Of a stretch of DNA of 14,691 nucleotides, positions 1-13,891 are shown piece by piece. This stretch comes from Clostridia bacterium. Lineage in GTDB: Bacteria > Bacillota_A > Clostridia > Christensenellales > Borkfalkiaceae. The stretch spans positions 1 through 14,691 of the forward strand of contig JAFQBR010000099.1 in NCBI GenBank assembly GCA_017399665.1, written 5' to 3'. How positions within the stretch are numbered: the stretch's first letter is position 1; the number at the start of each line of letters is the position of its first letter. The notes under the pieces are model-generated. The model saw nothing but the letters and a program-made list of their open reading frames with translations. It made no database searches and was not told the origin of the DNA. A program made the position numbers and the translations under genes.

Positions 1-1295
1 ATTTCTTCTTCTGTTATCTCTTTGCCTGTCTTTTTAGCTTTAATGTAAGTAATAAGCTTTTTAGTAAAGAAAAGCGCGTAGTGAACGGCAAGACCTACTA
101 TTATTGCAACTACTAAATCAAAAACGACTGTTAAAACAAAGGTAAGCACCAATACGCATATATCGGCAGGGGATTTCTCTTTAATTACGTGAATAAACTC
201 GCGCCATTCACTCATGTTATATGCAACCATGAATAATATTGCCGCAATAACAGGCATTGGAATAAGTGAGGCGTAGGGCATTAGCAATAATAAAATAAGC
301 AGTAAAACTATTGCGTGAACTATACCGGAAATTGGGCTTCTGCCACCGTTTCTTACGTTCGCTGCCGTTCTTGCAATAGCGCCCGTTGCAGGTATTCCGC
401 CAAATAGCCCTGAGCATATATTGCCAAGACCAAGAGCTATAAGCTCTGTGTTTGGGTTGTGCTTATCGTCAATCATTCTATCCGATACTACGCAAGAAAG
501 AAGTGACTCTATTCCCGCAAGTAAAGCGATAGTAAACGCGCTGGGTATAAGCTCTAAAACTGTATCTAAATTAATAGTAGGAAAGTTGAATTTTGGTAAA
601 TCAGATGAAATAGAGTATAAATTACCAATGGTCGTAACGTCAATTTGGCTAAGTAAAACAACTATTGTTCCTGCAAGCACGGCAATTAGCGAGCCCGGGA
701 TTTTTTTAGAAACCTTTGGCCATAAAATAAGTATTGCAAGCGCAAACGCGCCAACACCAAGCGCCCACCAATTTATAGTTGCAATATTTTCTATAACAGC
801 CATAAACTTTTCGCTTGTTTCTATTGGGGAAGTTCCTGCAGGATATGTAAGCCCTAAAAAGTCCTTTATTTGTCCAACTAGAATGGTTATTGCTATACCA
901 GATGTAAAGCCTATCGTTATGCTTTTTGGTATAAATCTAATTAACCCGCCAACTCTAAAAAGCCCAAGCAAAATAAGTATTAAGCCGGCTAGCAAAGTGG
1001 CAATAACAAGCCCCTCTATTTGGTAATCTAAAACAATCCCCGCAACTATGGTTGCAAATGCCGCAGTAGGGCCTGAAATGTTAACCTTACTTCCGCCAAG
1101 AAGTGAAATAACAAACCCCGCTACAATGGCGGTATAAAGCCCTTGTTCGGGAGATACGCCTGATGCGATTGCCAGCGCGATTGAAAGTGGCAAAGCAATT
1201 ATTGCAACAATTAAACCTGCAATAATATCGTTTATAAATTGTTTTTTGCTGTAAGATTTAAAAAGGGTAAAAATCTTGGGTTGAAATATCTTCAT
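1..1295 (-). CDS. SulP-family inorganic anion permease (3' part outside window)
   Basis: Secondary transporter of the SulP/SLC26 family, which move sulfate, bicarbonate or related anions across the inner membrane. My reverse-strand translation gives 431 residues with no stop before the window edge. Residues about 24-90 carry the family's conserved N-terminal region (GLIVAIIALPLSIALAIASG, then SPEQGLYTAIVAG, then SGPTAAF). Many hydrophobic segments follow, up to a last one ending near residue 415. The final visible residues are charged (KKTGKEITEEE), where the linker to the C-terminal STAS domain is expected, so that domain, if present, lies outside the window. ATG at 1295 is chosen because AAGGA precedes it by about five bases. 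The ATG at 1300 is out of frame and hits a stop at once. A sigma-A promoter lies directly upstream. The substrate cannot be told from sequence; sulfate or bicarbonate are both plausible. Confidence 0.9.
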   Translation of the reverse strand, partial: MKIFQPKIFTLFKSYSKKQFINDIIAGLIVAIIALPLSIALAIASGVSPEQGLYTAIVAGFVISLLGGSKVNISGPTAAFATIVAGIVLDYQIEGLVIATLLAGLILILLGLFRVGGLIRFIPKSITIGFTSGIAITILVGQIKDFLGLTYPAGTSPIETSEKFMAVIENIATINWWALGVGAFALAILILWPKVSKKIPGSLIAVLAGTIVVLLSQIDVTTIGNLYSISSDLPKFNFPTINLDTVLELIPSAFTIALLAGIESLLSCVVSDRMIDDKHNPNTELIALGLGNICSGLFGGIPATGAIARTAANVRNGGRSPISGIVHAIVLLLILLLLMPYASLIPMPVIAAILFMVAYNMSEWREFIHVIKEKSPADICVLVLTFVLTVVFDLVVAIIVGLAVHYALFFTKKLITYIKAKKTGKEITEEE

Positions 1296-1322
1296 AGCAT
1301 TCCTTCTTTTGTTGATGAAAAG

Positions 1323-1351
1323 ATTATACTTTGTTTGCAAAATAATTTCAA
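1323..1351 (-). promoter_or_regulatory. Sigma-A promoter of the SulP gene
   Basis: On the minus strand, TTGAAA (1351-1346), a 17-bp spacer and a consensus TATAAT (1328-1323). Expected transcription start is near 1316, giving a leader of about 20 nt that contains the AAGGA ribosome binding site. Confidence 0.75.
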
Positions 1352-1442
1352 GTAAAATTTTTACTATTATCTATTTTTTTATTATAAAATTTTGTTATTA
1401 ACTCAGTATCGAAAATCAAACTAAATTTTATATATTATTAAT

Positions 1443-1468
1443 GTAAACAAATAATATGATTTGTTTAC
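1443..1468. repeat. Perfect inverted repeat, possible operator or hairpin
   Basis: Arms GTAAACAAAT (1443-1452) and ATTTGTTTAC (1459-1468) are exact reverse complements around a 6-nt centre. It lies 28 bp upstream of the -35 of the sigma operon and is followed by a short T-run. It could be a regulator site or a weak hairpin; nothing identifies the partner. Confidence 0.5.
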
Positions 1469-1496
1469 TTTTTTAATAAATAAATTAAATTTTAAC

Positions 1497-1525
1497 TTGA
1501 AAAAAGTAAGTTTTGGCGGTATAAT
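1497..1525 (+). promoter_or_regulatory. Sigma-A promoter of the sigma-factor operon
   Basis: TTGAAA (1497-1502), 17-bp spacer, TATAAT (1520-1525). It would supply basal transcription starting near 1532, upstream of the ECF-like promoter. Confidence 0.75.
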
Positions 1526-1545
1526 ATGTGCAGAAAAAAATTTTT

Positions 1546-1572
1546 CCAATAAAACTCTAATTTTATTCGTTT
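1546..1572 (+). promoter_or_regulatory. Candidate ECF-sigma promoter, copy 1 (autoregulatory)
   Basis: Box CCAAT (1546-1550, within CCAATAAAA) and box CGTTT (1568-1572, within ATTCGTTTAAT) are 17 bp apart. The same two boxes at exactly the same distance occur upstream of the lipoprotein gene at 3701-3727. The geometry matches the 16-17 bp spacing of ECF -35/-10 elements. The -10 CGTTT resembles the CGT-type -10s of Bacillus ECF promoters, while the -35 departs from the common AAC core. Assignment to the adjacent sigma factor is inference. Confidence 0.55.
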
Positions 1573-1591
1573 AATTAGTGCAGGGGAGATT

Positions 1592-2113
1592 ATGGAAAGA
1601 AAAAGATTAGATGATTTACTTGTAAAAATAGCAAGTGGCGATAATAACGCCTTTGCTGAATTTTATCAAAAGACGTTAAAAGGAGTATACGTCTTTGCTT
1701 ATTCCTATTTAAAGGAAAAAACGGCAACGGAAGATTTAGTGCAAGAGGCGTATATTCAAATAAAATTAAAGGCGCATACCTATAAATCGGGCACAAATCC
1801 CAAAGGGTGGTTTTTACAAATCGTTAAAAATATGTGCATAGACGAAATTAGAAAAAGAAACCGCTCCGAAAGTTTGTTTGCAGACGGCGACCAGCTTGAA
1901 AAGGTTGTAGCAAGCCCCTTTGAAGAAAATTCTGCAATGCGTTTTTTATTAGATAAGCTTACAGATGAAGAAAAAGAGATTGTTCTTTTACATATTTACT
2001 GGGGCTATAAACATAAGGAAATTGCAAAAATGCTTAATATTCCCTTAGGAACTGCGCTTTGGAAATACAACGGCGCAATAAAAAAACTAAAAACTTATAA
2101 GGAGGATTTATGA
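1592..2113 (+). CDS. ECF-type RNA polymerase sigma factor
   Basis: A 173-residue protein with the two-domain architecture of ECF sigma factors, which direct RNA polymerase to a small stress or envelope regulon. Region sigma-2 spans about residues 15-90 and includes the core-binding/-10 segment with DLVQEAY (48-54), followed by PKGWFLQIVKNMCIDEIRKR. Region sigma-4 spans about 114-170, with LTDEEKEIVLLHIYWGYKHKEIAKMLNIP forming the helix-turn-helix. The last helix reads GTALWKYNGAIKKLK instead of the common GTVKSR pattern. There is no sigma-3 domain, so it is not a SigI protein, although its partner looks RsgI-like. AGGGGAG lies just before ATG 1592. The stop overlaps the next start by 4 nt (ATGA), a sign of translational coupling with the anti-sigma gene. 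It has a sigma-A promoter plus a likely self-recognised promoter. Confidence 0.9.
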   Translation: MERKRLDDLLVKIASGDNNAFAEFYQKTLKGVYVFAYSYLKEKTATEDLVQEAYIQIKLKAHTYKSGTNPKGWFLQIVKNMCIDEIRKRNRSESLFADGDQLEKVVASPFEENSAMRFLLDKLTDEEKEIVLLHIYWGYKHKEIAKMLNIPLGTALWKYNGAIKKLKTYKEDL

Positions 2114-3405
2114 GAGCGAAAAAGTTTTTTAAAAAACTGAATAGCGAGCTAGACGGCGTTTTACCTGCAATGTCAGAAAAAGTTAAAAGCGCACCCATTC
2201 CCCCTTGCGAAAGTCAAAGTGAAATTGAAGAAAATACCAAAAAGCCCTTTAATATTTTTGAGTTTTTTACTTTAAAAAGAGTTTGCGCTTTTGCTTCTGC
2301 ATTAGTAATACTTATGGTTGGTATTATGGGAAGCATAGCTCTTTTCGGTGGCGCAAAGGTAAGTGATAGGGCGGTTGTTACTATTGATATAAATCCCTCT
2401 TTTGAACTTGTTTTAGACGAAGATATGAAGGTGGAAAAGGTTACAAGCACAAATACAGACGGCGATATGCTTTTAAAATCGCAGGGCTTTGCGGATACGC
2501 TTATTGGACTAGAACTTAAAGAGGTAACCTTAATAATTGCAAATAAAGCAACCGAATATGGCTTTATAGATTACCGCAAAGACGGAACAAACGGCGAATA
2601 TAATCAAATTAAAGTAAATGTTTCAGGTAATACTGAAAAATTACCTAAAGATTTACTTTCTGGCGTTAATCAGCACTTAACGCAAAGCTTTATGCAAGAG
2701 GGTATATTCCTTTTTGTTGACTGCGTTCAAACGACAGTAAATGACTTTAACACTCTTTTACAAACAGCGCAAGAAAAAGCTCAATACTACGGCGAGGGCA
2801 TCAAAAACGCAGGGGCAGAGATGACTGCATATTGCGAAGAATTAGTTTTAGATTATACAACTAGCTTGCTTTTATATACTGTTGAAAAGTATAAACTTGT
2901 TAGCGAAATCACGCAGATAAACGAGCAAATTAAAGAAGATCAAAGTAATATTTTAGGCTTAGACTATTGGACTTATTTTGGCGACAGTGAACAAATAGCT
3001 GGCTTAAAAGCGGAAATGAGCATCAAGCTTGAAGATTTATATCAAAAATTTAATATTGATGCGCGTACGAGTACGAGTGGAGTAGCTTTTTACCTAGTTA
3101 GTGGCGCGCTTGAAAATTTTGACCTTGCTTCTGCTGAAGAAGTTTTAAAAACCGGCGTAACCGTGGCATTTTTTGAAAGCGAGTTAATGGATAATCTTAT
3201 ACTTACTTCCATGGATTCAATAATATCAACAGTTATTGAATTTTATTCTCAAATAGTTATGGGAATGATGGAAAATATCACCCAAACGGTGAACGAAATT
3301 ATAAGCAGTACGGAAGAAATAAGAGCTCAATTGTTCACTCATGAAAAACTAGATAGTATTTCACAAGAAGAATATCAGGCCTTTTTAACGTCAATCGGAA
3401 AGTAA
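2110..3405 (+). CDS. Membrane protein with RsgI-like sensor domain, probable anti-sigma factor
   Basis: A 431-residue single-pass membrane protein, likely the anti-sigma factor for the overlapping sigma gene. Residues 1-57 are cytoplasmic, charged, and show no zinc-finger Cys/His cluster. One membrane helix lies at about 58-80. Directly outside it is a domain starting AVVTIDINPSFELVLDEDMK (about 88-107), which matches the juxtamembrane domain of RsgI anti-sigma proteins (typical pattern: SIDxNPSxEl..n...v). In RsgI the Asn-Pro bond of this motif is a known autoproteolysis site; here it is N95-P96. Residues about 185-431 are predicted mostly helical, with no recognisable binding module, unlike clostridial RsgI proteins that end in carbohydrate-binding domains. 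Translation is coupled to the sigma gene; AAGGAGG sits inside the sigma C-terminus at the right distance. The anti-sigma role rests on gene order and the RsgI-like domain; the cytoplasmic segment itself was not recognised. Confidence 0.75.
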   Translation: MRAKKFFKKLNSELDGVLPAMSEKVKSAPIPPCESQSEIEENTKKPFNIFEFFTLKRVCAFASALVILMVGIMGSIALFGGAKVSDRAVVTIDINPSFELVLDEDMKVEKVTSTNTDGDMLLKSQGFADTLIGLELKEVTLIIANKATEYGFIDYRKDGTNGEYNQIKVNVSGNTEKLPKDLLSGVNQHLTQSFMQEGIFLFVDCVQTTVNDFNTLLQTAQEKAQYYGEGIKNAGAEMTAYCEELVLDYTTSLLLYTVEKYKLVSEITQINEQIKEDQSNILGLDYWTYFGDSEQIAGLKAEMSIKLEDLYQKFNIDARTSTSGVAFYLVSGALENFDLASAEEVLKTGVTVAFFESELMDNLILTSMDSIISTVIEFYSQIVMGMMENITQTVNEIISSTEEIRAQLFTHEKLDSISQEEYQAFLTSIGK

Positions 3406-3461
3406 ATAAAAGATTGGTGTAATAAAAAGACCTAAAAATAATAGGTAAAAATAAAAAATAA

Positions 3462-3674
3462 GGCGATGTCACAAACAATGGTTGATTTTTTTAAGAGATA
3501 AAATTACTTTAGTTAAAAGCTAAAATAAGTTTTAGATGCGAGTAAGAGGCGGCATTTGTAAATTTTTGCAAGGAAGCGTACTTGCCGTACGTTGGAATTG
3601 TAAAAATTTGCAAATAACAAACTATTACGAAGTATATAAAACTTATTTTATCAACCGTTTGTTGTGACAGAGCC
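3462..3674. mobile_element. MITE-like palindromic element, non-coding
   Basis: The terminal 24 bp at each end are imperfect inverted repeats (3462-3485 against 3651-3674, 19 of 24 matching, sharing GGC, TGTCACAA and GGTTGA). Nested inside are perfect 14-bp arms (TAAAATAAGTTTTA at 3521-3534, complement at 3637-3650), then 18-bp arms with two mismatches (3554-3571 and 3598-3615), then a CGTAC/GTACG core hairpin (3577-3591). Both ends are flanked by AATAA (3457-3461 and 3675-3679), a possible 5-bp target duplication, or 7 of 8 bp if read as 8-bp. In this AT-rich DNA that evidence is weak. It contains no open reading frame of note, so it would need a transposase supplied elsewhere. The outer GGCTCTGTCACAA end loosely resembles ISL3-type termini; that family link is a guess. 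Confidence 0.65.
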
Positions 3675-3700
3675 AATAATAAAAAAAATTTTAAAAATTA

Positions 3701-3727
3701 CCAATAAAATTAAAATCTCATTCGTTT
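3701..3727 (+). promoter_or_regulatory. Candidate ECF-sigma promoter, copy 2 (lipoprotein gene)
   Basis: CCAAT (3701-3705, within CCAATAAAA) and CGTTT (3723-3727, within ATTCGTTTAAT) repeat the boxes found before the sigma gene with identical 17-bp spacing, although the DNA between the boxes differs. No convincing sigma-A promoter is seen nearer the gene, so expression probably depends on this element. Confidence 0.55.
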
Positions 3728-3759
3728 AATAAGCGAAAAAAAACTTAAGGAGTAAAACT

Positions 3760-5259
3760 ATGAAAAAACAATTACTAAAACTTTTAGCACTCACATCAGC
3801 TGTGGTTATAGCTTTCCCCTTATTTGCTTCTTGCTCAAAGGATGAAGAGCCTCAGGTTAAAGCTGTATCACACGTATCACTTGACATCAACCCCTCTTTA
3901 TCTTTTTCTTTAGATGAAGAAAACAAGGTAATCTCTGTTCATGCGTCTAACGAAGATGCACAAATCATGCTTTACGGCGAACATTTAGAAGGTTTAACTC
4001 TTGACGTAGCTTTAGAAAAAGTGGCTCAGCTTTCACTTGAATTAGACTATTTAAACGTAGATAATCACGGTATCAACGTAAGCGTTAGCGGTAATATTGG
4101 CGAGGCAGAGGTTGTTGGCAAGGTTGAAGGCGCATTCGATAAAGAAAGCGGTTCTTTAGACGTTAACGTTTCTGCAGACGGAACGTTTAGTGATTTAAGA
4201 ATGCTAGAATCTATAAAAGCAAACTTTAGCGCAAACGTAGACGTTCAAAATCTTACTGTTAATGAATACAAATTAATCGCTGAAGCTCAGGCTGTAGACG
4301 GAACTTTATCTGTTGAAGAAGCGGTTAAAATGAAAACAGAAGAGCTTATCAAGATTATCTCTGACGGAGCAAAAGAAATTGAACCTTATGCAACCAAAGC
4401 ATATAACGCAGCAGTTGCAGTTGCAGAAAGAGCATATAAAGAGCTTAAAGGTCAGCTTATCGATACAATGTGGCTTGAACCTTACGTAAAAGATATGGCA
4501 AGCGCAGCTTTATCAGGTAAAAGAAAGTACCTTATCAATAACGGCGCTTTATACAATATGTATGCAGCATCTTCAAGAGTAATGGGCGTTGCTATCGACT
4601 CTATCGAAAAGGCTATTGAAATTGCGAACAACACTCAAGTTCCTACTGCAACTATAGATAAAATTGCCGTAGCACTTGCTCTTACTGAAGAACAAAAAGC
4701 AGCTTTCGTTGCAGAAGTTACAGTAGACGGTAAAATCACTCTTGCATCAATCGAAGCATATCTTACAAGATGGCTTAAAAACTTAACTAGCGAACAAAGA
4801 GCTCAGATGAAAGCTACAGTTCAAGCTTTAATTAGTGACGTTCAAGCGTTTGCTCTTACTATAGATAGCGCAATTGCAGAAGAATACAAGAAAGCACTTG
4901 AAAAACTTGCAACCGATTTAAACGACGCTATTCCTAGTGAATTAAAGAGTTTAGCAGGCTCTTACTTAGGCGAATTTGAAAAGCTTATTAATAATATTTT
5001 AACGGCAGTAAACGATAAAGAACCTTTAGTTGCTGCAAAAGAGGTTAAGGTAAGCTTTGATGATGGCGCAGAAATGTTTATGAAACTTATGAGAGCAGAA
5101 CTTACTGAAGAAGACCTTGCAAGCGTAGAAAGCAAAATAGCTCTTGTAAACGATACTTTAGCTACTTACGAAAAGAACTTTGCAGATGCTAAGGCAAAAG
5201 CTGAAGCAGACGCTAAGGCTTGGCTTGAAAGCGCAAGAGCAGCAAGAACTCAAGCTTAA
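3760..5259 (+). CDS. Lipoprotein with RsgI-like domain, probable target of the sigma factor
   Basis: A 499-residue predicted lipoprotein anchored on the outer face of the membrane. Residues 1-24 form a type II signal peptide (basic KK start, hydrophobic core) ending in lipobox FAS-C25. Residues about 37-115 (SHVSLDINPSLSFSLDEENK onward) match the RsgI-like domain of the preceding membrane protein, including the DINPS motif (N44-P45), LDEE/LDED, and a closing VSVSGN/VNVSGN. The remaining ~380 residues are Ala/Glu/Lys-rich and probably helical, ending in a coiled-coil-like tail (AKAKAEADAKAWLESARAA); no known domain was recognised there. ATG 3760 has AAGGAG seven bases upstream. It is followed by a bidirectional terminator. 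Codon choice is markedly different from the sigma and anti-sigma genes (many ATC, GAC, AAC), as in strongly expressed genes. Function unknown; it could be a decoy, structural envelope protein or co-sensor. Confidence 0.75.
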   Translation: MKKQLLKLLALTSAVVIAFPLFASCSKDEEPQVKAVSHVSLDINPSLSFSLDEENKVISVHASNEDAQIMLYGEHLEGLTLDVALEKVAQLSLELDYLNVDNHGINVSVSGNIGEAEVVGKVEGAFDKESGSLDVNVSADGTFSDLRMLESIKANFSANVDVQNLTVNEYKLIAEAQAVDGTLSVEEAVKMKTEELIKIISDGAKEIEPYATKAYNAAVAVAERAYKELKGQLIDTMWLEPYVKDMASAALSGKRKYLINNGALYNMYAASSRVMGVAIDSIEKAIEIANNTQVPTATIDKIAVALALTEEQKAAFVAEVTVDGKITLASIEAYLTRWLKNLTSEQRAQMKATVQALISDVQAFALTIDSAIAEEYKKALEKLATDLNDAIPSELKSLAGSYLGEFEKLINNILTAVNDKEPLVAAKEVKVSFDDGAEMFMKLMRAELTEEDLASVESKIALVNDTLATYEKNFADAKAKAEADAKAWLESARAARTQA

Positions 5260-5363
5260 TATAACTAATATAACTTTAAATTACCAATATATAATTTGCG
5301 TTGCAGATAACATTTTTTATTCTCCCCCTCCTTTTAGTTATCAGTTAGCGCAAATTGAAAAAC

Positions 5364-5393
5364 AAAATGCGCGGATTTAAATCCGCGCATTTT
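5364..5393. terminator. Bidirectional terminator between convergent genes
   Basis: A perfect 30-bp palindrome whose core is ATGCGCGGATTT/AAATCCGCGCAT, flanked by A-rich and T-rich ends (AAAA...TTTTT). It can terminate the lipoprotein transcript rightwards and the carbamoyltransferase-like transcript leftwards. Confidence 0.85.
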
Positions 5394-5411
5394 TATGCTT
5401 TATATAAATTG

Positions 5412-6326
5412 TTATTCTTTAACGTTGCCAATCGAAAGTGCTAAAATTGCTTTAAGTATAGGCATAGCGTTTGCTGCTTGTTCGTAAATTAAGGTGTTGG
5501 GGTAGTTAAGCGTTTCTTCAGAAATATCTACGCCACGGTTAATGGGCATTGAGTGAAGAAGTAGTGCTTCTTTATTAGCAAAACGGAAATAACGGTCTGT
5601 AAATAAAAACTCTTTATCAAATTCGTGGTCCATAATAAAGATAATATCAGCACCGCGAACACCGTCTTCAATTTGATCAAATACGTCAACGAAACCAAAT
5701 TGGTTGCAGTAGGTTAAAATTTCTGCAGGTGGCTCGTGTCCGTCTGGGCAAACGATAGAAATATCAAGTCCGCATTTAACTGCACCGGCAATTAAAGAGT
5801 AGTCGCCGTTGCCAACGTCGCCAATTATTGCCATTTTTAAACCGCGTAATTTGCCCTTGTTTTCCCAAATTGTAAGAAGGGCAGCTAGTGACTGGCAGGG
5901 GCTTGTTCTGCCGTTAGCGTTAATTACGGGCATGCAAGAATAGTTTTCCAAAATTTCTGCGTCGTGTAAAAATTCGGTATCAACAACTACTGCAGAAACG
6001 CCGTAATTTTTAACAATAGTAGTAGTGTCTGGATCTTTTAATTCTTCAGCAATTTTTGCACCCGGTAAAGATACCGTTATGGGCATACCGCCAAGCTCGT
6101 TAACGGCAATTTGAAAGCCAATTAAAGAACGTACGTAAGCAGGCTTTGTAAGTAGGGCAACGTATTTGCCGTTTAGCCAATTCATTCTTTCGCGCACCGT
6201 TTGCTTTTGTTTTATTTCTTTTGCAAAATGTAATATTTCAAAAATATCTTCAGTTGCGGTATTTTGCAAAGTGATAATCATTTTATTATTTAGTTTTCTT
6301 TTGGGAGTATAACCGTTTAAGTTCAT
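5412..6326 (-). CDS. Divergent aspartate/ornithine carbamoyltransferase family protein
   Basis: A 304-residue protein of usual family length with the two-domain ATCase/OTCase fold. The N-terminal carbamoyl-phosphate domain covers about residues 16-155 and the second-substrate domain about 160-300 (nucleotide-fold-like LRGLKMAIIGDVGNGDYSLIAGA, 160-182). Conserved family marks are PCQSLAALLTIWE (143-155), LLHSMPINRG (256-265, usual HCLPxxRG) and YEQAANAM (281-288). The usual STRTR carbamoyl-phosphate loop is replaced by KPAYVRSLIGF (61-71), and the His that precedes P-x-Q in working enzymes is Ser142. The ornithine SMG loop is not seen. Activity as a normal carbamoyltransferase is therefore doubtful; it may use another substrate or be regulatory. 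ATG 6326 has AAAGGAGAG upstream. It stands alone, with no pyrimidine or arginine genes beside it. Confidence 0.8.
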   Translation of the reverse strand: MNLNGYTPKRKLNNKMIITLQNTATEDIFEILHFAKEIKQKQTVRERMNWLNGKYVALLTKPAYVRSLIGFQIAVNELGGMPITVSLPGAKIAEELKDPDTTTIVKNYGVSAVVVDTEFLHDAEILENYSCMPVINANGRTSPCQSLAALLTIWENKGKLRGLKMAIIGDVGNGDYSLIAGAVKCGLDISIVCPDGHEPPAEILTYCNQFGFVDVFDQIEDGVRGADIIFIMDHEFDKEFLFTDRYFRFANKEALLLHSMPINRGVDISEETLNYPNTLIYEQAANAMPILKAILALSIGNVKE

Positions 6327-6369
6327 AAATCTCTCCTTTAAAGTCGCTTTTATGCTTGCAAAAATTTGT

Positions 6370-6418
6370 AAACATCTATTTCGTATACTTACATTATAAC
6401 AAAAAAAATTAGATGTTT
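6370..6418. repeat. Inverted repeat bracketing the carbamoyltransferase-like promoter
   Basis: AAACATCTA (6370-6378) and TAGATGTTT (6410-6418) are perfect complements. The right arm overlaps the -35 and the left arm lies just past the expected start site, an arrangement suited to a repressor bound at both arms. The regulator is unknown; the sequence is not an evident ARG or PyrR box. Confidence 0.45.
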
Positions 6419-6421
6419 CAA
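6393..6421 (-). promoter_or_regulatory. Sigma-A promoter of the carbamoyltransferase-like gene
   Basis: On the minus strand, TTGAAA (6421-6416), 17-bp spacer, TATAAT (6398-6393). Start site is expected near 6386, giving a leader of about 60 nt. Confidence 0.8.
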
Positions 6422-6539
6422 TCTTTTTTTATAAAAATAAGGTAAATTTCTCATAATTAAGTAAAGAGTTTTATAATTCTTGTTTTTTATGCGTTTATTT
6501 TGATTTTTAATTATGTGCGAATTGACTAAATCAATTTTA

Positions 6540-6611
6540 CATTTTTTAACAGTATTAAAAGAGTTTTGTTGTGGTTTTAGTTGGTATAAGTGTAAAAAGT
6601 GTTAAAAAATG
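6540..6611. repeat. Perfect 12-bp inverted repeat with 48-nt spacer
   Basis: CATTTTTTAACA (6540-6551) and TGTTAAAAAATG (6600-6611) are exact reverse complements. They lie in the middle of the divergent region, about 100-170 bp upstream of the ABC ATPase promoter. The arms are AT-rich, so chance is possible. Confidence 0.4.
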
Positions 6612-6711
6612 CAATGCTGCTTATAGAAAAGTACAGTTTTTGTTAATCTCTTTATAAATTTTATTGTGCAATATGAACAAAACAAAATGCGCAAATTATA
6701 CACATTGCCTA

Positions 6712-6740
6712 TTGCAAAATTTTATTAAATATGTTAAAAT
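6712..6740 (+). promoter_or_regulatory. Promoter of the ABC ATPase gene (extended -10)
   Basis: TTGCAA (6712-6717), 17-bp spacer, TAAAAT (6735-6740) preceded by TGT, an extended -10 (TGN). A TATAAT at 6740-6745 is an overlapping alternative but lacks a well-placed -35. Confidence 0.55.
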
Positions 6741-6785
6741 ATAATCAAATGTAAAACTTACGTTTATTATTTGGAGGAAAATTGT

Positions 6786-8111
6786 ATGGCTAGTTTACTA
6801 CTAAAGGATATCTACAAAGTATATCAAAGTGGCGTTACCGCTGTTACTGACTTTACTTTAGATATCGAAGACAAAGAATTTATCGTATTCGTAGGTCCTT
6901 CCGGTTGCGGTAAATCAACCACTCTTCGTATGATTGCAGGTCTTGAAGAAATCACAGACGGTGAACTTTATATCGACGGCAAACTTATGAATGACGTTCA
7001 ACCTAAAGACAGAGATATCGCAATGGTTTTCCAAAACTATGCGTTATATCCCCACATGACTGTTTACGATAACATGGCTTTCGGTCTTAAACTTAGAAAA
7101 ATGCCTAAGCCTGAAATCGACGCAAGAGTTAAAGAAGCTGCAAGAATTTTAGGTCTTGAAATCTATTTACAAAGAAAGCCCAAAGCTTTATCAGGCGGTC
7201 AAAAACAAAGGGTTGCATTAGGTAGAGCTATCGTTCGTGAACCTAAGGTATTCTTACTTGACGAACCTCTTTCAAACCTAGATGCTAAGCTTCGTGCTCA
7301 AATGAGAACGGAAATCACAAAGCTTCACCACCGTCTTGCTACGACCTTTATTTACGTTACGCACGACCAAGTAGAAGCTATGACCATGGGTACAAGAATC
7401 GTTGTTATGAAAGACGGTTTCATTCAACAGGTTGACGCTCCCCAAAAATTATACGATTATCCCGCAAACAAATTCGTTGCAGGCTTCATCGGTACACCTC
7501 AAATGAACTTCTTTGATGCTGTTTTAACCGGTACACCTGATAACGTTTGCGTTGAATTCGAAGGTAACAAAATCGTTCTTCCCAAAGCAAAGGCAGATAC
7601 TATTATCGATCTAGACCAATACCTCAACACCGGCAAGCCCGTTACGTTTGGTGTTCGTCCTGAAGATATGCATGATGATGAAGCTTTCATTTCTTCTTCA
7701 CCTGAAACTGTTGTTAAGGTTGTTGTAGACGTAGTTGAAAAACTAGGTGCAGAAACTCAACTTTACTGCGTATTCGATAACGGTCAAACTGAAGATAGCG
7801 AACAAATTAAGAGCTTAGTAGATAGCGAAAAACAAATGATCGCTCGCGTTGACTCTAGAACTAAAACAGAAAGAGGTCAAAGAATTGCTCTTGCTATCGA
7901 CGCTATGCATTCACACTTATTCGATAAGGAAACTGAACTTACCATTTTAGAAGGCGAAGGTACTAAGGCTTACGTTCCCGTAAAAGAACTTGAAAGACAA
8001 GCTGAACGTGCAGCTAATGCAGAAGCTGAAGCAGCTGTTGAAAAAGAACCTATTAAAATACCTTTATTCCCTCAAAAAAAGGAAAAGAAAAATAAAGAAG
8101 AAGAAAAATAA
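6786..8111 (+). CDS. ABC transporter ATPase, MsmX/UgpC (sugar importer) type
   Basis: Cytoplasmic ATPase that powers carbohydrate ABC importers. Over 441 residues it shows Walker [10 protein letters not shown] (37-45), Q-loop Gln83, signature LSGGQKQR (135-142), Walker B VFLLDEP (155-161), D-loop SNLD (163-166), switch His193, and a C-terminal regulatory TOBE/MalK-like region with FGVRPEDMH. Start ATG 6786 is preferred over an in-frame TTG at 6771 because GGAGG (6773-6777) lies eight bases before the ATG and overlaps the TTG. No permease or binding-protein genes flank it, which fits the MsmX habit of one ATPase serving several sugar importers. A charged tail of about 49 residues (393-441, Ala/Glu-rich then Lys/Glu-rich) extends beyond the usual ~370-residue family length. 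Codon choice is biased (ATC, GGT, CGT), suggesting high expression. A strong terminator follows. Confidence 0.92.
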
Positions 8112-8124
8112 TCTTTAAAAATAA

Positions 8125-8156
8125 AAACTGACTTCACAATGAAGTCAGTTTTTTTT
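8125..8156 (+). terminator. Rho-independent terminator of the ABC ATPase gene
   Basis: Stem AAACTGACTTC (8125-8135) / GAAGTCAGTTT (8141-8151), 5-nt loop ACAAT, then a T-run to 8156. It lies 13 nt after the stop codon. Confidence 0.9.
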
Positions 8157-8260
8157 ATACTTTTTTAAAGTTGTTTTAAAAGTAAATCTTTGTTTTGCTT
8201 TTGTACAAAACTTATTTTGTTAACTTTTTAAGCTAACTTTTACAACTAAACAAAAGCGTT

Positions 8261-8296
8261 AAAGTGCCGATAATCGACTTATACAGGCACTTTTTT
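8261..8296. terminator. Terminator-like hairpin with conserved loop, copy 1
   Basis: Stem AAAGTGCC (8261-8268) / GGCACTTT (8286-8293), 17-nt loop GATAATCGACTTATACA, and a plus-strand T-run 8291-8296. It lies just past the ClC stop on the minus strand (8303), where its T-run is shorter. The loop matches the hairpin at 11850-11886 at 15 of 16 positions although the stems differ. The ABC gene already has its own terminator, so the plus-strand use of this one is unclear. About 100 nt of hairpin-rich DNA before it (palindrome TTTTGTACAAAA at 8199-8210) might belong to a small RNA, but no promoter was found. Confidence 0.65.
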
Positions 8297-8302
8297 ATTT
8301 TT

Positions 8303-9901
8303 TTATTCTTCTTTCCACTCACTTTCGCTAAATTCTTGTTTTCCAAGTATAGCGGAAATTTCTTCTTTTGTTTGAGAATGATTAAAGGTAGAATATCTTA
8401 CGTGAAGTTTGTCGCCTGGATACATATTTTTTTCGCCATGCTCGTCAATTTCGGGGCGAGTATCAGAGCGTTTAATTGAAAGCACGAAAAAGTTGTTTGG
8501 CCAAAGAATATCTCTTATTTGTTTACCAACGGCAAAAGAGTTTTCTTGAACGGTAAGAACTGTATCAACAAGCTGACGTTCTTTATTTTCGTTTTCCTCT
8601 TCAACTCTGAATTCCATAATTTCATCGTTTACAGATTTTGGGCAGAATATTTCAGAAATAATATAAGAAACAATTGCAACTATAGCCACGGAAAGCACGT
8701 TTGTAAATAAAAATAATGCTTCAAACGCAAATACCATTGCTGTAATCGGGGTTTTAGTTGCACCTGAAATGCAAGCGGTCATTCCTAGTAAAATTATTAC
8801 TTGATAATAGCTTTCGTTAAGCCCTAGTATGATTAAAATCTTAGCAATCGATGCAGAAATTAATGCACCAAAAGCAAGTGTTGGTATAAAAGTACCCCCT
8901 GTAATCCCTGCGCTCGTTCCTGCAGAGGTTAGCAAAAAGCGAACTAAAAGTATTATTAAAAGTAAGTAAATAGGTTGACTTTTATCTGTTAAAAGATGTT
9001 CTATTAAGTGGTGGCCCGTTCCAATAAATTCTTGCGAAATAAGGCCAAATATGACGGTGCATAAAAAGATTAAAAGAATAGATAAGGTTTTCTTGAAAGC
9101 GGTGGTGCTAACAACTATCTTTTTTCTTATAAATTTAATAAGTTTTGTAAACGCAACGGTAAAAAATCCAATAATTAAGCCTATTACAACGGGAATATAT
9201 AAATCACTTATTTCAAGTACAATTGGGGCAAGGGATTTAAATAAATTGGGATCTATACCTAAAAGATTAGAAAAAATATGCGAAGCGATAATTGCAAAAG
9301 ACACGGTTGCGCCAGATACCATAAGTAGCATTGGTGAAAGTCGGTGATGCGCTTCCTCTAGTGCAAGCATTATGCCAGAAATCGGTGCGTTAGTAGCAAC
9401 TGCAAAGCCTGCGCTTGCGCCACCTGTCATTATATATCTTTTCCACGCTTTATTTTTTTTGCCCAGCGTTTCAACAACACCGCAACCGATTGCAGAGCCA
9501 GAAAGTACGGAAGGTCCTTCGTTGCCAAGCGGTGTTCCAATTAAAAAGGTTAGTAGCGAACCGATAATTACGCCAGTTAACGTTCTAAGCCATTTAAATG
9601 TTACAAGCCCTCTTAAAAAAGCAATGGCGTTTGCAATTCCGCCCCCTTTTGCATCTGGGGTAAGCTTATTAAAAAGCCTGTTAACGGCAGTAATAATAAT
9701 ACAAAATGGTACGGCTAATAGCGCATAAATTAAATTATTACGCAAAAAAGAGTATATTTGTTGCGAATAACTAATAATTTTAGTTGCAACGTATCTATAC
9801 CCAACAACAAGCGCTCCCGTTAACGTGCCCGTAATAAAGCTAAAAAGTAAAACGGGAATTATTATGTTTTTAAAATAGACGCTAAAAATACCTTTCTTCA
9901 T
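8303..9901 (-). CDS. ClC-family chloride/proton antiporter with TrkA-C domain
   Basis: Polytopic membrane protein of 532 residues exchanging Cl- for H+. Diagnostic motifs are GGGIANA (86-92, the GSGIP position), GNEGP (126-130) with gating Glu128, GGTFIP (335-340) with following LAFGA, and LALEEAHH (179-186). The last keeps the Glu pair containing the proton-pathway Glu of E. coli ClcA (E203), which favours an antiporter over a channel. Residues about 440-505 form a TrkA-C (RCK_C) domain (VGKQIRDILWPNNFFVLSIKR...MYPGDKLHVR), a cytosolic ligand-sensing module seen in other Firmicute ClC proteins. Start ATG 9901 (or ATG 9910) is uncertain because neither has a clear Shine-Dalgarno. The upstream in-frame TTG at 9937 lies before the expected transcription start (~9933) and is rejected. 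Confidence 0.9.
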   Translation of the reverse strand: MKKGIFSVYFKNIIIPVLLFSFITGTLTGALVVGYRYVATKIISYSQQIYSFLRNNLIYALLAVPFCIIITAVNRLFNKLTPDAKGGGIANAIAFLRGLVTFKWLRTLTGVIIGSLLTFLIGTPLGNEGPSVLSGSAIGCGVVETLGKKNKAWKRYIMTGGASAGFAVATNAPISGIMLALEEAHHRLSPMLLMVSGATVSFAIIASHIFSNLLGIDPNLFKSLAPIVLEISDLYIPVVIGLIIGFFTVAFTKLIKFIRKKIVVSTTAFKKTLSILLIFLCTVIFGLISQEFIGTGHHLIEHLLTDKSQPIYLLLIILLVRFLLTSAGTSAGITGGTFIPTLAFGALISASIAKILIILGLNESYYQVIILLGMTACISGATKTPITAMVFAFEALFLFTNVLSVAIVAIVSYIISEIFCPKSVNDEIMEFRVEEENENKERQLVDTVLTVQENSFAVGKQIRDILWPNNFFVLSIKRSDTRPEIDEHGEKNMYPGDKLHVRYSTFNHSQTKEEISAILGKQEFSESEWKEE

Positions 9902-9939
9902 AATTACCATGTAAGCAAAATAATGTATTAACGGCAAAA

Positions 9940-9969
9940 ATTATACCATAAAATGGGGCAGTAAATCAA
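9940..9969 (-). promoter_or_regulatory. Sigma-A promoter of the ClC gene
   Basis: On the minus strand, TTGATT (9969-9964), 18-bp spacer, TATAAT (9945-9940). Expected start near 9933 leaves a leader of only 22-32 nt. Confidence 0.6.
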
Positions 9970-9998
9970 GCAAATACAAAAAGTAGATAAAAAAATGC

Positions 9999-10026
9999 AA
10001 AAAAAAGCACAACCAAGTGGTTGTGC
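9999..10026 (-). terminator. Terminator of spoVG
   Basis: Minus-strand stem GCACAACC (10026-10019) / GGTTGTGC (10014-10007), 4-nt loop, then eight T residues (10006-9999). It begins 13 nt after the spoVG stop and lies upstream of the ClC promoter. Confidence 0.85.
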
Positions 10027-10039
10027 ATAAGTTTGTTAT

Positions 10040-10309
10040 TTATGCTTGAGCGTTAATTTCTTTTTGGTAAGCGTTCATAATTGCTTCCTGAACTTGAGCT
10101 CTTGCTTCAGCATTAATTGGGTGAGCAATATCCTTGTGCTCGTTTTCGCCAAATTTTCTTGAAGGCATAGCAATAAAATAACCGTTAGCACCGTCTACAA
10201 TCTTAATATCATGTACAACAAATGCGCCGTCAATAGTGATAGATGCGACAGCCTTTAATGGACTGTCTTCCTTAGTGATAAGTCTAATTCTTACGTCAGT
10301 AATGTTCAT
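10040..10309 (-). CDS. spoVG: SpoVG family nucleic-acid-binding regulator
   Basis: An 89-residue protein matching SpoVG along its whole length: MNITDVRIRLITKEDSPLKA, then VASITIDGAFVVHDIKIVDG, then NGYFIAMPSRK and DIAHPINAEAR. Known SpoVG proteins bind DNA or RNA and affect septation, sporulation, capsule or virulence in Bacillota. ATG 10309 has GGGAGA just upstream. It is transcribed alone from a sigma-A promoter, divergently from murC, and ends in a strong terminator. No sigma-H type promoter, which drives spoVG in B. subtilis, was seen. Its presence supports a Bacillota host but does not by itself prove sporulation. Confidence 0.95.
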   Translation of the reverse strand: MNITDVRIRLITKEDSPLKAVASITIDGAFVVHDIKIVDGANGYFIAMPSRKFGENEHKDIAHPINAEARAQVQEAIMNAYQKEINAQA

Positions 10310-10353
10310 ATTATTCTCCCTAATAAATTGTGCTTAATTTATTTTCTAATAAT

Positions 10354-10382
10354 ATAATACTATAAATTGTGTACAATTTCAA
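10354..10382 (-). promoter_or_regulatory. Sigma-A promoter of spoVG, overlapped by a palindrome
   Basis: On the minus strand, TTGAAA (10382-10377), 17-bp spacer, TATTAT (10359-10354). A palindrome with arms AAATTGT (10364-10370) and ACAATTT (10373-10379) covers the spacer and part of the -35, a plausible operator position. Confidence 0.6.
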
Positions 10383-10467
10383 TAAAAAATAAGGGCAAGT
10401 TAAAAAATAATTGAATTTTTTTCAATTTTCTTGTGGAAAATATGCAAAATAGTGCATATATTACAAT

Positions 10468-11805
10468 ATGAATATGAATTTTTTGAGAAAAAATAAAAAT
10501 TTTTCTGTGTTTTTTGTTGGAATTGGCGGGATAAGCATGAGCGCCCTTGCATTGTATTTACATAATTTAGGTTTTAAAGTTAGCGGTTATGACAAGGTGG
10601 AAAGTACAGTTACTAATAACTTAAAAAGGTATGGTATTTCAATAAATACAAAAGGCGATTTAGAAGGGTGCGATATTGCTGTTTTATCTTCTGCGATTAG
10701 CGAAAGTGATGATTTAGTAAAAAAGTTGAAACAATTAAATAAAACCTGTATTTTGCGTTCAGAGCTTTTAAACGAAATTGCCAACACCTTTCAATATAAA
10801 GTAGGTGTTGCTGGAACGCACGGTAAAACGACTACAACTGCAATGATTGCCCACGTTCTAAAAAAAGCGAATAAAAATTTTAGCGCCCATATTGGCGGAA
10901 TTGATAAAGACTTTGGAAATATGGCGTGCTTTGGAAAAGAGATTTTTTTAAGTGAAGTGTGTGAATATAAAAAAAATATTTCTAAGTTTGACTGTGATTT
11001 GGCTCTTTTATTAAACGCAGATGACGATCATCTAGAAAGCTATGGTAAATTAAGTGAGTTGCATAAAGAATTTTCTGCTTTCTTAATGCGCTCAAAAATC
11101 AACGTTTTACCTTACGAGCAAAAAGAGCTTGGTAATAAAAATAGTATTACTTTTTCACTTAAAAACAGCAATGCAGACTTCTTTGCAAGCAATATAAGAA
11201 TAGGCGATAAAAATATTGAATGTACCGTTAACAGCGCTATAGGGGCACTTTTTGATGTAAAAATTAACAGTTTGCTAGAACACGACGTAGAAAATGCCAT
11301 TGCAAGCGTTGCTGTTTGTAAGGCGCTTAAAATAGAAAATGAATATATAAAAAAAGGTCTTGAGGATTTTAATGGAATAAAACGTAGAAACGAAATTATG
11401 GCAACAATTTACGGTTGTGATATTTATGCTGATTATGCTCATCATCCAAAACAAATTGAGGCAACGGTAGAAATGCTTGCAAAAAAATATAAAAAATTTG
11501 CTATTTTATTTCAGTCGCACACTTATTCAAGAACGGCAACTCTTTTTAAAGGCTTTATAAAAAGTTTAAGTGCGGTTGAAAACTTGTTTATATTTGATAC
11601 TTATGCTGCGCGCGAAAAATACTATTATAACGGAAGTGGTAAAAGACTGTTTGAAAATTTAAAAGGGGCAGTTTATTTAGGTGATAGAGTAAATGCAAAA
11701 AGCTTATTTCCAAATGCTTGCAAAAAGTTTGACTGTATTGCAGTTATTGGTGCAGGGGATTTGTATGACGTTATAGAAGAGTGTATAGCGGTAAATAATT
11801 ATTAA
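10468..11805 (+). CDS. murC: UDP-N-acetylmuramate--L-alanine ligase
   Basis: Cytoplasmic Mur ligase adding the first L-Ala to UDP-MurNAc in peptidoglycan synthesis, with ATP. The 445 residues show the three Mur domains: N-terminal UDP-binding VGIGGISMSALA (17-28), ATP loop GTHGKTTTT (116-124), SEVCEY (162-167), NADDDHLESY (183-192), DYAHHP (322-327) and FQSHTYSRT (348-356). The VxGIGGxxMSxLA start and HxYSRT are typical of MurC rather than MurD/E/F. It is not beside other mur or fts genes. No Shine-Dalgarno precedes ATG 10468 (upstream TATTACAAT). A TATATT at 10457-10462 could serve as -10 and make the mRNA nearly leaderless, but no good -35 was found. ATG 10474 is an alternative start. Confidence 0.93.
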   Translation: MNMNFLRKNKNFSVFFVGIGGISMSALALYLHNLGFKVSGYDKVESTVTNNLKRYGISINTKGDLEGCDIAVLSSAISESDDLVKKLKQLNKTCILRSELLNEIANTFQYKVGVAGTHGKTTTTAMIAHVLKKANKNFSAHIGGIDKDFGNMACFGKEIFLSEVCEYKKNISKFDCDLALLLNADDDHLESYGKLSELHKEFSAFLMRSKINVLPYEQKELGNKNSITFSLKNSNADFFASNIRIGDKNIECTVNSAIGALFDVKINSLLEHDVENAIASVAVCKALKIENEYIKKGLEDFNGIKRRNEIMATIYGCDIYADYAHHPKQIEATVEMLAKKYKKFAILFQSHTYSRTATLFKGFIKSLSAVENLFIFDTYAAREKYYYNGSGKRLFENLKGAVYLGDRVNAKSLFPNACKKFDCIAVIGAGDLYDVIEECIAVNNY

Positions 11806-11849
11806 TTTTAGTTATAAATAATAGATTTAATTAATATTTTAAATAAAAT

Positions 11850-11886
11850 AAAAAGTTGCGATAATCGACCTATACCGCAACTTTTT
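11850..11886. terminator. Bidirectional terminator with conserved loop, copy 2
   Basis: Stem AAAAAGTTGCG (11850-11860) / CGCAACTTTTT (11876-11886) with a 15-nt loop ATAATCGACCTATAC. T-runs exist in both directions, so it can end murC (plus) and ung (minus, stop at 11895). Together with the closing G the loop repeats the copy at 8269-8284 except for one T/C change. Confidence 0.8.
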
Positions 11887-11894
11887 GCTATTTA

Positions 11895-12566
11895 TTAATC
11901 GTTTAAGTCCCAATTTATGGGGGTAATAGAATTAGCAGTTAGAAATTTATTAGCTTTTGAAAAATGCTTACAACCAAAGAAACCGCCGTATGCAGAAAGG
12001 GGGCTTGGATGTACGCTTTCTAAAACTAAATGTTTTGTTGTATCTATAAATTGTTTTTTGCTTCGTGCATTTGCGCCCCAAAGTAAAAACACCATTGGCT
12101 TTTCACGTTTTGCAAGAAGTTTTATAACCTCGTCTGTAAATTCTTGCCAGCCACACTTGCTGTGTGAGTTTGCCTGACCTTGTCTTACAGTTAGCGTTGT
12201 ATTAAGAAGCATTACACCTTGCTTTGCCCATTTTGTAAGATTTCCGCTTTTACTTGGCGTGATACCTAAGTCGTTTTGAATTTCTTTATAGATATTAACG
12301 AGTGATGGGGGAGGTTGAACTCCATCTTGCACCGAAAAACATAACCCGTGTGCTTGCCCTTCGCCATGATAGGGATCTTGCCCAATAATTACTACTTTAA
12401 CGTCAGCGTAAGGTGTGTAGCGAAAAGCGTTAAAAATATCCTTCATAGGGGGATAAATAATGCGTGATGAATATTCGCTTTTTAAAAATTCGCGAATGCG
12501 CTTGTAAAGCTCGCTTTGAATAAGTGGGGCAAGAACGCTGTCCCAATCATTGCCGATTTGTAACAT
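11895..12566 (-). CDS. ung: Uracil-DNA glycosylase (family 1)
   Basis: Base-excision repair enzyme removing uracil from DNA. The 223 residues match the usual family-1 length. Motifs are GQDPYHG (62-68) with catalytic Asp64, HGLCFSV (73-79), NTTLTV (122-127) with uracil-reading Asn122, and HPSPLSA (186-192) with His186 in the Leu-insertion loop. ATG 12566 is chosen because GGAGAAGG stands just upstream and the protein then begins like other Ung proteins; an in-frame ATG 26 codons earlier adds a non-homologous Lys/Phe-rich stretch. It lies 151 bp downstream of the radical SAM gene on the same strand, so cotranscription is possible. A weak TTGAAG-N17-TATTTT in the gap could be its own promoter. 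Confidence 0.95.
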   Translation of the reverse strand: MLQIGNDWDSVLAPLIQSELYKRIREFLKSEYSSRIIYPPMKDIFNAFRYTPYADVKVVIIGQDPYHGEGQAHGLCFSVQDGVQPPPSLVNIYKEIQNDLGITPSKSGNLTKWAKQGVMLLNTTLTVRQGQANSHSKCGWQEFTDEVIKLLAKREKPMVFLLWGANARSKKQFIDTTKHLVLESVHPSPLSAYGGFFGCKHFSKANKFLTANSITPINWDLND

Positions 12567-12717
12567 AACCTTCTCCTGTGTGGTTGATTTGCGAATAAAA
12601 AACAGTTTAAAACAAAAAATAAGTTTATGAAAAATTTGCTTCAAAAAATTAAAGAAATGTCTAATAAAAGCCCTAACGTATGTAAAAAATTGTGCAAAAA
12701 GTACGCAAATAGACTTA

Positions 12718-13581
12718 TTAATAATCCCACTTGGGAATAAATTTAGTGCTTGAAGAGTTGCGTTCTTGGATTAAGCAGTTTGTAATTTTTGCTTCAAAAA
12801 GATGGTTAACAACTCTCTCGTATTCTCCCTTTGTTATAGGCCTTTTAAGTTCTGGGAAATTATCGATTTCGCCAAATGGGGTGTACTGCGCCATAACTGA
12901 AAAATATGCGCCGTTTTTTATATTTTCTTTCACCCAATCAATAATTTGAAAGCTGTCTTTAACGGCTAGCGGTAAAACTAAATGGCGTATGCAAACGCCT
13001 TGCTTCATAAGCCCGTTTTCAACCACCGCCTGTTTGCTTTCCATCATAAAATTTATGGCTTTAGAAGCTACTTCAAAATAGTGATTAGTGCGCGTATAGC
13101 GCGATGAAATGGCATTTGAATAAAATTTCAAGTCGGGCAAATATACGTCTGTAAAGCTGTTTGCAATTTCTAAAGTTGCAATATTTTCGTAGCCGTGCGT
13201 GTTATAAACAACGGGTATTTTTGGCTTGTAAATTTGCATAGCTTTGGCAATTTGTTTTACAAAATGTGAAGGATTAACAAGGTTGATGTTGTGCGCGCCC
13301 ATATCCTCAAGCTCTTTAAAAATTTTTGCAAGCTCTTCTAGTGTGATTTCTTTGCCAACGGTAGAACGTGAAAGCTCGTAATTTTGGCAGAACACACATT
13401 TTAAAGGACACCCTGTAAAAAACACAGTTCCGCTTCCATTTGTACCGCTAATAAAGGGCTCTTCAAAGGGATGCAGGTAATATTTAGCAATTCTCATGCT
13501 GTTTTTTTCGCCACAAATGCCAACGTGTAAATTTCTATCAACAGAGCAAAGATTTGGGCAAAGAGTACACTTTTCTTCCAT
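12718..13581 (-). CDS. PflX-like radical SAM protein (COG1313 type)
   Basis: A 287-residue cytoplasmic radical SAM enzyme related to pyruvate formate-lyase activating proteins. The SAM-cleaving cluster is CPLKCVFC (C58, C62, C65; Cx3Cx2C). A second Cys group lies at the N-terminus (C5, C8, C12, C23; CTLCPNLC...GICGE), a pattern of PflX/COG1313 proteins that may bind an extra Fe-S cluster. Later landmarks are VNPSHF, VVYNTHGYE, DVYLPDLKFY, RHLVLP and FSVMAQYTP, typical of this group. The substrate is unknown and no glycyl-radical enzyme gene is adjacent, so 'pyruvate formate-lyase activating enzyme' would be over-annotation. The start ATG 13581 has only a weak AGGT upstream. It is transcribed from a near-consensus promoter at 13654-13682. 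Confidence 0.88.
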   Translation of the reverse strand: MEEKCTLCPNLCSVDRNLHVGICGEKNSMRIAKYYLHPFEEPFISGTNGSGTVFFTGCPLKCVFCQNYELSRSTVGKEITLEELAKIFKELEDMGAHNINLVNPSHFVKQIAKAMQIYKPKIPVVYNTHGYENIATLEIANSFTDVYLPDLKFYSNAISSRYTRTNHYFEVASKAINFMMESKQAVVENGLMKQGVCIRHLVLPLAVKDSFQIIDWVKENIKNGAYFSVMAQYTPFGEIDNFPELKRPITKGEYERVVNHLFEAKITNCLIQERNSSSTKFIPKWDY

Positions 13582-13653
13582 TTTGTTTACCTAAAAAGCA
13601 CTAACTAATGCTTAATTTTTATAAAAAATAAAACTTTTTGTTAAACTAGTTTA

Positions 13654-13682
13654 ATTTTATCATAAACCCTTTTGTAAGTCAA
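13654..13682 (-). promoter_or_regulatory. Sigma-A promoter of the radical SAM gene
   Basis: On the minus strand, TTGACT (13682-13677), 17-bp spacer, TAAAAT (13659-13654). Expected start near 13647, inside the palindrome TTAAACTAGTTTAA. Confidence 0.7.
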
Positions 13683-13799
13683 GTGGCGCTTGTTTGAATT
13701 TTTACTTTTGTTGGTCCGCTTAGTTAATTGTAAAAAAGCGTTATTTTTTTGTATGCGCGCGCGATTAAATATTATATAATAAATATTTTGCAATAAACG

Positions 13800-13828
13800 T
13801 TGACAAAACGGCATAAATGGTATATAAT
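13800..13828 (+). promoter_or_regulatory. Consensus sigma-A promoter of metK
   Basis: TTGACA (13800-13805), 17-bp spacer, TATAAT (13823-13828): a perfect match to the sigma-A consensus and the strongest promoter in the window. Confidence 0.9.
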
Positions 13829-13891
13829 AGTTCGGTCAAGCTAAAAAGTTTAACGTAAAATCAAAAAATAATTACAAAAGGAAATATAAAA

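Follow-up and report, generated by a model that had tools for sequence, protein, structure and literature searches.

The closest described relatives of the locus reported here are the SigI–RsgI pairs of Bacillus subtilis and Clostridium thermocellum, in which sigma and anti-sigma genes are adjacent, autoregulation is expected, and RsgI carries an RsgI_M domain with an Asn-Pro site outside a single transmembrane helix. Extracytoplasmic function (ECF) sigma factors, in turn, are found with membrane anti-sigma factors in pairs of the SigW–RsiW and RpoE–RseA types, and in Streptomyces the lipoprotein CseA is encoded beside the ECF sigma gene sigE. The locus lies in a stretch of 14,691 nucleotides from a Clostridia bacterium of the Borkfalkiaceae (assembly GCA_017399665.1, contig JAFQBR010000099.1, positions 1 to 14,691), hereafter the window, and consists of genes for an ECF sigma factor, a membrane protein and a lipoprotein; an RsgI_M domain is common to the membrane protein and the lipoprotein. 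We consider it probable that these genes form an autoregulated ECF sigma/anti-sigma circuit using a rewired RsgI of the SigI type.

The features listed above for SigI–RsgI are all present or predicted in the window. Unlike SigI, however, the sigma factor is an ECF protein with sigma4, instead of sigma2 plus a SigI-specific C-terminal domain; the cytoplasmic end of its partner lacks RsgI_N; the promoter-like element, CCAATAAA-N15-GTTTAAT, differs from the A-tract/CGWA of SigI (PMC10575876, available in part); and a lipoprotein with RsgI_M is predicted to be an additional target. With the SigW–RsiW and RpoE–RseA types the window shares a two-domain sigma factor, an overlapping partner gene, predicted autoregulation and likely regulated intramembrane proteolysis, but its cytoplasmic part is short, zinc-free and without a Pfam anti-sigma domain, and the first cut is predicted to be made by RsgI_M itself instead of a site-1 protease. 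The likeness to sigE–cseA lies in the extracytoplasmic lipoprotein encoded beside an ECF sigma gene; in contrast to the window, that system has no anti-sigma factor, sigE is under the control of a two-component system, and sigma-E does not act on the promoter of its own gene, according to the available part of PMC6767563.

The sigma gene (1592..2113, plus strand) encodes 173 residues. Hidden Markov model (HMM) searches of its open reading frame (ORF) returned the Pfam domains Sigma70_r2 (48.7 bits), Sigma70_r4_2 (33.4 bits) and Sigma70_r4, all above cut-off, as well as TIGR02937 (80.8 bits, cut-off 42.9); the protein thus fits the ECF pattern of sigma2 and sigma4 only, within about 170–200 residues. 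The following ORF (2110..3405, plus strand) overlaps its end by 4 nt and encodes a single-pass membrane protein of 431 residues, the anti-sigma candidate according to ORF, domain and model, with a cytoplasmic part (about residues 1–57), a transmembrane helix (about 58–79), RsgI_M and a helical C-terminal part. Residues 1–57 contain one Cys and no His, and therefore no zinc-finger anti-sigma signature. RsgI_M was the sole Pfam match of this protein at E ≤ 1, with no other anti-sigma domain, and RsgI_N (PF12791) gave no match to its cytoplasmic end at that level. From the gene overlap and the conserved pairing we infer that the short, zinc-free cytoplasmic part holds the sigma factor.

Both RsgI_M domains (PF23750, cut-off 25.3) scored above cut-off: residues 88–208 of the membrane protein (2371..2733, plus strand) with 57.5 bits and residues 37–136 of the lipoprotein (3868..4167, plus strand) with 60.5 bits. 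The two are 33% identical across 85 residues, and comparing the profiles of the two proteins gave a probability of 98.9% over 119 columns; beyond this shared stretch, neither sequence nor profile–profile comparisons found notable likeness between them. The domain of the membrane protein also matched the B. subtilis RsgI structure 8t9n (Foldseek E-value 4.1e-05, target-normalized TM-score [TMt] 0.78). The solved RsgI chains begin at the Pro position of the Asn-Pro site, and the window sites, Asn95-Pro96 of the membrane protein (2392..2397, plus strand) and Asn44-Pro45 of the lipoprotein (3889..3894, plus strand; between model strands 37–42 and 46–51), align there. This Asn-Pro site is invariant in the 24 ECF-partner membrane proteins that were aligned. 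By homology with RsgI, both bonds are predicted to be cleaved by the domains themselves. The original prediction had described a 173-residue sigma2/sigma4 ECF factor with an overlapping membrane gene, an RsgI-like product of that gene lacking the common zinc finger, and a downstream lipoprotein with the same domain, and had named in advance a profile match of both domains to RsgI as its test; the ORFs and profiles bear all of this out. What did not stand is its view of the shared domain as a sensor, as RsgI_M is described in the available part of PMC12203970 as the self-cleaving transduction domain of SigI-type RsgI and not as a ligand sensor.

The lipoprotein (499 residues; 3760..5259, plus strand) comprises, by ORF, Pfam and model, a putative signal peptide, RsgI_M and a helical part of approximately 360 residues. 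Its lipobox-like LFAS-C25 was read from the sequence with a simple pattern, and has a less usual Phe at -3; Cys25 is invariant across 28 aligned lipoproteins. In a tree of 132 RsgI_M domains (112 columns, many forks unresolved, the groups not clean clades), 8 changes separate the domains of lipoproteins, ECF partners and SigI partners, compared with 60.7 in shuffles. This suggests that the lipoprotein domain is an old sister lineage and did not arise recently by local copying.

In order to survey the gene set, genome contigs were scanned with a mixed RsgI_M alignment and the best 80 of 269 loci were taken. The nearest relative found, L026, comes from a Clostridiales metagenome-assembled genome, G001. 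In the family to which G001 belongs, 25 of 61 genomes had an RsgI_M match, and these genomes supplied a further 29 regions. After removal of two duplicate contigs, 108 loci, the window included, were typed by HMM. An ECF-type sigma gene was present on 51, and 39 of these also carried an RsgI_M lipoprotein, a count that is not a rate for any taxon. Because loci were picked by their lipoprotein-like or RsgI_M match and not by the sigma gene, the adjacency of the ECF gene was not selected for. The membrane protein has RsgI_M in 30 of the 39; the three-gene neighbourhood, whose absence from related genomes would have counted against the original prediction, is thus conserved. One further locus (L015) stops at its edge. 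In the remaining 8, belonging to seven Acholeplasmataceae (including L065, from the cultivated Peloplasma aerotolerans M4Ah) and one unclassified Mycoplasmatota (L077), the middle gene encodes a protein with a single transmembrane helix and no RsgI_M match even at E ≤ 1, whereas both the lipoprotein with its RsgI_M domain and the promoter element are retained. The usual order is sigma, membrane protein, lipoprotein, with the lipoprotein first in L017, L020, L030, L032, L126, L129, L132 and L133. L026 has the same gene order as the window, flanks included, with identities of 39% for SulP, 65% for the sigma factor, 39% for the membrane protein, 62% for the lipoprotein, 76% for the carbamoyltransferase and 95% for the MalK-type ATPase; of the three proteins of the set, conservation is lowest for the membrane protein. 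Across a draw from the whole phylum, RsgI_M-type matches were common (118 of 249 genomes), and among the matches listed the full-length lipoprotein was found only in G001.

The identity of the sigma partner was reflected in the cytoplasmic end of the membrane protein. SigI models matched all 34 scanned ORFs upstream of RsgI_M membrane proteins that have no ECF partner (36 were listed, of which two beside genes treated as lipoprotein-like, in L017 and L020, were left out; L062 had no upstream ORF in range), and sigma2 plus sigma4_2 were present in all 30 ECF partners scanned of the 51. RsgI_N occurred in all 17 SigI-partner proteins that were scanned (of 35) and in none of the 24 ECF-partner proteins scanned (of 42), and RsgI_M in 17 of 17 and 23 of 24, respectively. 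The transduction domain is retained, and the sigma-binding end changes with the sigma factor. The available part of PMC6056542 places the difference between SigI and ECF factors in sigma4. In one ECF-partner membrane protein (L016, 5782-7386) the ectodomain resembles the lipoprotein beyond RsgI_M (33% across 180 residues). Six Oscillospiraceae-type loci (L039, L040, L059, L067, L071 and L076) have the ECF gene and the RsgI_M membrane protein, and 6 of the 24 scanned ECF-partner proteins carry PepSY domains. On these six loci there is no lipoprotein gene, and 33 nt before the sigma gene stands an element that resembles the one described below without being the same, around CAATATT-N15-GTTATATA. 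Another group of RsgI_M proteins (P0031–P0039), mostly of about 462 residues and several of them on large contigs, had a different cytoplasmic N-terminus in the two inspected.

The sigma and lipoprotein genes are preceded by the same sequence. Predicted ECF promoter P1 (1546..1575, plus strand) stops 16 nt short of the start codon of the sigma gene and P2 (3701..3730, plus strand) 29 nt short of that of the lipoprotein gene, both reading CCAATAAA-N15-GTTTAAT with 0 mismatches. The six further matches in the window have 3 mismatches each, giving a total of 8, against 2.7 in shuffles, of which 1 in 200 reached at least 8. As the lipoprotein gene carries the sigma gene's own element, this sigma factor is predicted to act on it as well. 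A matrix was built from 39 sites of 26 loci, always leaving out the locus tested, with the threshold set so that 1% of 1083 upstream regions of other genes exceeded it; this test is not fully independent, since related species are in the training set. On the loci with both genes, the upstream region was above threshold for 24 of 39 sigma genes and 28 of 39 lipoprotein genes, compared with one of 42 ECF-partner membrane genes and one of 35 SigI-partner genes. Most of these sites on loci with both genes (46/52) start 33–97 nt before the assigned start codon. Two sites of the same locus differ by 3.7 letters on average, compared with 6.3 between loci (permutation P 5e-5, 22 loci), which also holds in a reduced set of 14, and the -10 variants GTTTAAT, GTATA and GTTGAAT tend to agree within a locus. 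The -10 core, CGTT, fits the X-G-T-Y given for ECF promoters in the available part of PMC10575876. The presence and conservation of the element predict an autoregulated promoter with an ECF-like -10. In L130, the best stretches before both genes, which are below threshold, read TGCGATAAAA and not CCAATAAA, hinting at a shifted -35 preference.

In the genomes that carry it, the element is rare. In G001 (2.1 Mb) the exact pattern matches twice, before the sigma and before the lipoprotein gene, vs 0 for the control pattern; each of two looser patterns brings one more site, while their controls give 2 and 1. Nine genomes, picked because their loci carry the element, gave 19 sites at up to one mismatch (5 in the reversed control), 16 of them before a sigma or lipoprotein gene of the set, two inside ORFs of the opposite strand, and one upstream of a glycoside-hydrolase-like gene in G074. 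In G075, for example, the sigma operon is on contig C38 and the lipoprotein gene on contig C44, about 53 kb from its nearer end; each has its site, and no further site was found genome-wide, with one control match. The circuit appears nearly closed, with the sigma factor predicted from these sites to activate itself, its lock and the lipoprotein. On the Mollicutes side, a CCAATAA-N15..17-GTATA variant matched 29 times in eight genomes, compared with 13 for the reversed control. Of these matches, 13 precede sigma or lipoprotein genes of the set; four (G062, G063, G064 and G065; loci L178, L180, L196 and L197) precede related subtilases, one (G065) a second RsgI_M lipoprotein (L205 599-1477, minus strand; 293 residues, RsgI_M 75.9 bits), and one (G066) a DUF2202 lipoprotein-like protein. 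Chance probably accounts for the other 10. The subtilase has an N-terminal hydrophobic stretch, at least 488 residues (the locus end cuts the gene), Peptidase_S8 at 160–192 bits and a Flg_new repeat. It could act as a site-1 protease in those loci whose lock has no RsgI_M, or it could be an effector.

These observations are consistent with a mechanism in which the zinc-free cytoplasmic part of the membrane protein would hold the ECF sigma factor, and RsgI_M, outside the membrane, would be cut at Asn95-Pro96 with its halves staying joined non-covalently, as in RsgI. An envelope signal would then separate the pieces, upon which a site-2 protease may cut the stub and release the sigma factor, again by analogy with RsgI. 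The released sigma factor would transcribe its own operon from P1 and the lipoprotein gene from P2, as suggested by the sequence of the two sites, their conservation and their genome-wide rarity. Whether the lipid-anchored lipoprotein would be the dedicated output, with a helical part behind the Asn-Pro bond that may be shed under the same stress, we regard as an evenly balanced question; feedback on the circuit would be possible besides this role. We favour it as the main output on three grounds: it is consistently the second predicted target, it persists on loci whose membrane protein gives no RsgI_M match, and its large helical part does not resemble the membrane protein of the window in the comparisons made. 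A fuller reading, which we offer tentatively and with rather more doubt than confidence, is that of a nearly closed, two-promoter ECF regulon whose only dedicated output in Clostridia would be a surface lipoprotein that cleaves itself and can be shed. Lock and output would both rely on one type of self-cutting domain, and the regulon would also occur in Acholeplasmataceae, a family of the wall-less Mollicutes, having gained an exported subtilase there.

Several results weigh against these proposals. On loci with both genes, the upstream region does not reach the promoter threshold for 15 of 39 sigma genes and 11 of 39 lipoprotein genes, and the same holds for 14 of 21 lipoprotein genes with no sigma gene on the locus (7 are above) and for all 12 sigma genes without a lipoprotein. 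A looser pattern gave 20 sites in 12 of the 61 family genomes, 10 of them at a sigma or lipoprotein gene of the set, compared with 10 control matches; outside the element-bearing genomes the pattern is at chance level. The model of the membrane protein is weak (mean predicted local distance difference test [pLDDT] score 64, below 60 in the cytoplasmic part). A site-2 protease turned up in all 20 genomes searched and likewise in all 14 controls, which makes its presence uninformative. Finally, it is conservation, not a known function of the helical part, that favours the effector role.

Other arrangements would account for part of the same evidence. One, in line with the original prediction, is that the lipoprotein switches the circuit off, either by absorbing the stimulus or by binding to the membrane protein via the domain common to both. 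This is rather unlikely in our view, even though both proteins carry the same domain and both genes the same element, and even though a precedent exists in CseA of the Streptomyces sigE operon, the loss of which raises sigE promoter activity (PMC6767563, available in part). The comparisons made show no likeness between the C-terminal regions of the membrane protein and the lipoprotein of the window, and a decoy acting like-on-like is weakened by the 8 loci that keep the RsgI_M lipoprotein and the element while the membrane partner has no RsgI_M match. The lipoprotein might otherwise be an upstream sensor working with the membrane protein. RseB, as a co-sensor with RseA, is the model for such a role, and the persistent co-occurrence of the genes and the lipoprotein-like stretch in the L016 protein agree with it. 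We nevertheless find it improbable, given that 12 of 51 ECF loci, which are short pieces, have no lipoprotein gene on the locus (two of them, L023 and L053, with weak sigma scores), and that the cleavage site is in both proteins, where a pure co-sensor does not need it.

A different doubt concerns the element, which might be a binding site for another regulator of both genes instead of an ECF promoter. The support for an ECF promoter is its sequence, and a sigma-70-type promoter-like site (TTGAAA-17-TATAAT, 11/12; 1497..1525, plus strand), a candidate basal promoter, also lies upstream of the sigma gene, although such sites as a class are not above chance in the region (14 vs 11.7 in shuffles). 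Two blocks at a fixed 15-nt spacing, a -10 core of the ECF form, the position of 46 of the 52 sites within 33–97 nt of the start and the tendency of -10 variants to agree within loci make a site for another regulator very improbable. Least credible of all, to the point of being negligible, is an ordinary SigI–RsgI pair that was misread: RsgI_M is there, but the sigma factor has sigma4 and its partner lacks RsgI_N, so that two defining features of such a pair are absent.

The gap between the membrane protein and lipoprotein genes is 354 bp in the window, compared with 130 bp in L026, which is too short for the 213-bp palindromic element found there in the window (3462..3674, no strand assigned). 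Its 25-nt inverted ends are 80% complementary, with AATAA flanking both sides. It is not part of the circuit and looks like a small mobile element; an end-to-end pattern of it had no exact match among the 207 loci compared. Behind the lipoprotein gene there is a terminator-like hairpin of 13 pairs (5364..5393, scored on both strands), a class which is not above chance in the region (3 found, 3.1 in shuffles).

No description of an ECF partner for an RsgI_M protein, or of an RsgI_M lipoprotein, was found in the literature searched, including the available parts of PMC12203970, PMC10575876, PMC6056542, PMC4711584, PMC12234377, PMC8103513, PMC12484212, PMC5138195 and PMC6767563. The parts are known already, and it is their combination and the two-promoter circuit that seem not to have been described. 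If the circuit is as proposed, the self-cleaving RsgI module would be portable, serving an ECF sigma factor once its cytoplasmic end is exchanged, and could also sit on a lipoprotein with no sigma factor to hold; with so small a regulon, the question is testable with two reporters. The Acholeplasmataceae are a family of Mollicutes, which as a group are described as lacking a cell wall in the available part of PMC5668537. The presence of the set in this family therefore points to a signal from the membrane or a surface protein rather than from peptidoglycan, with wall loss known at the level of the group, and on the fuller reading given above the circuit would respond to envelope stress without requiring a cell wall as its target.

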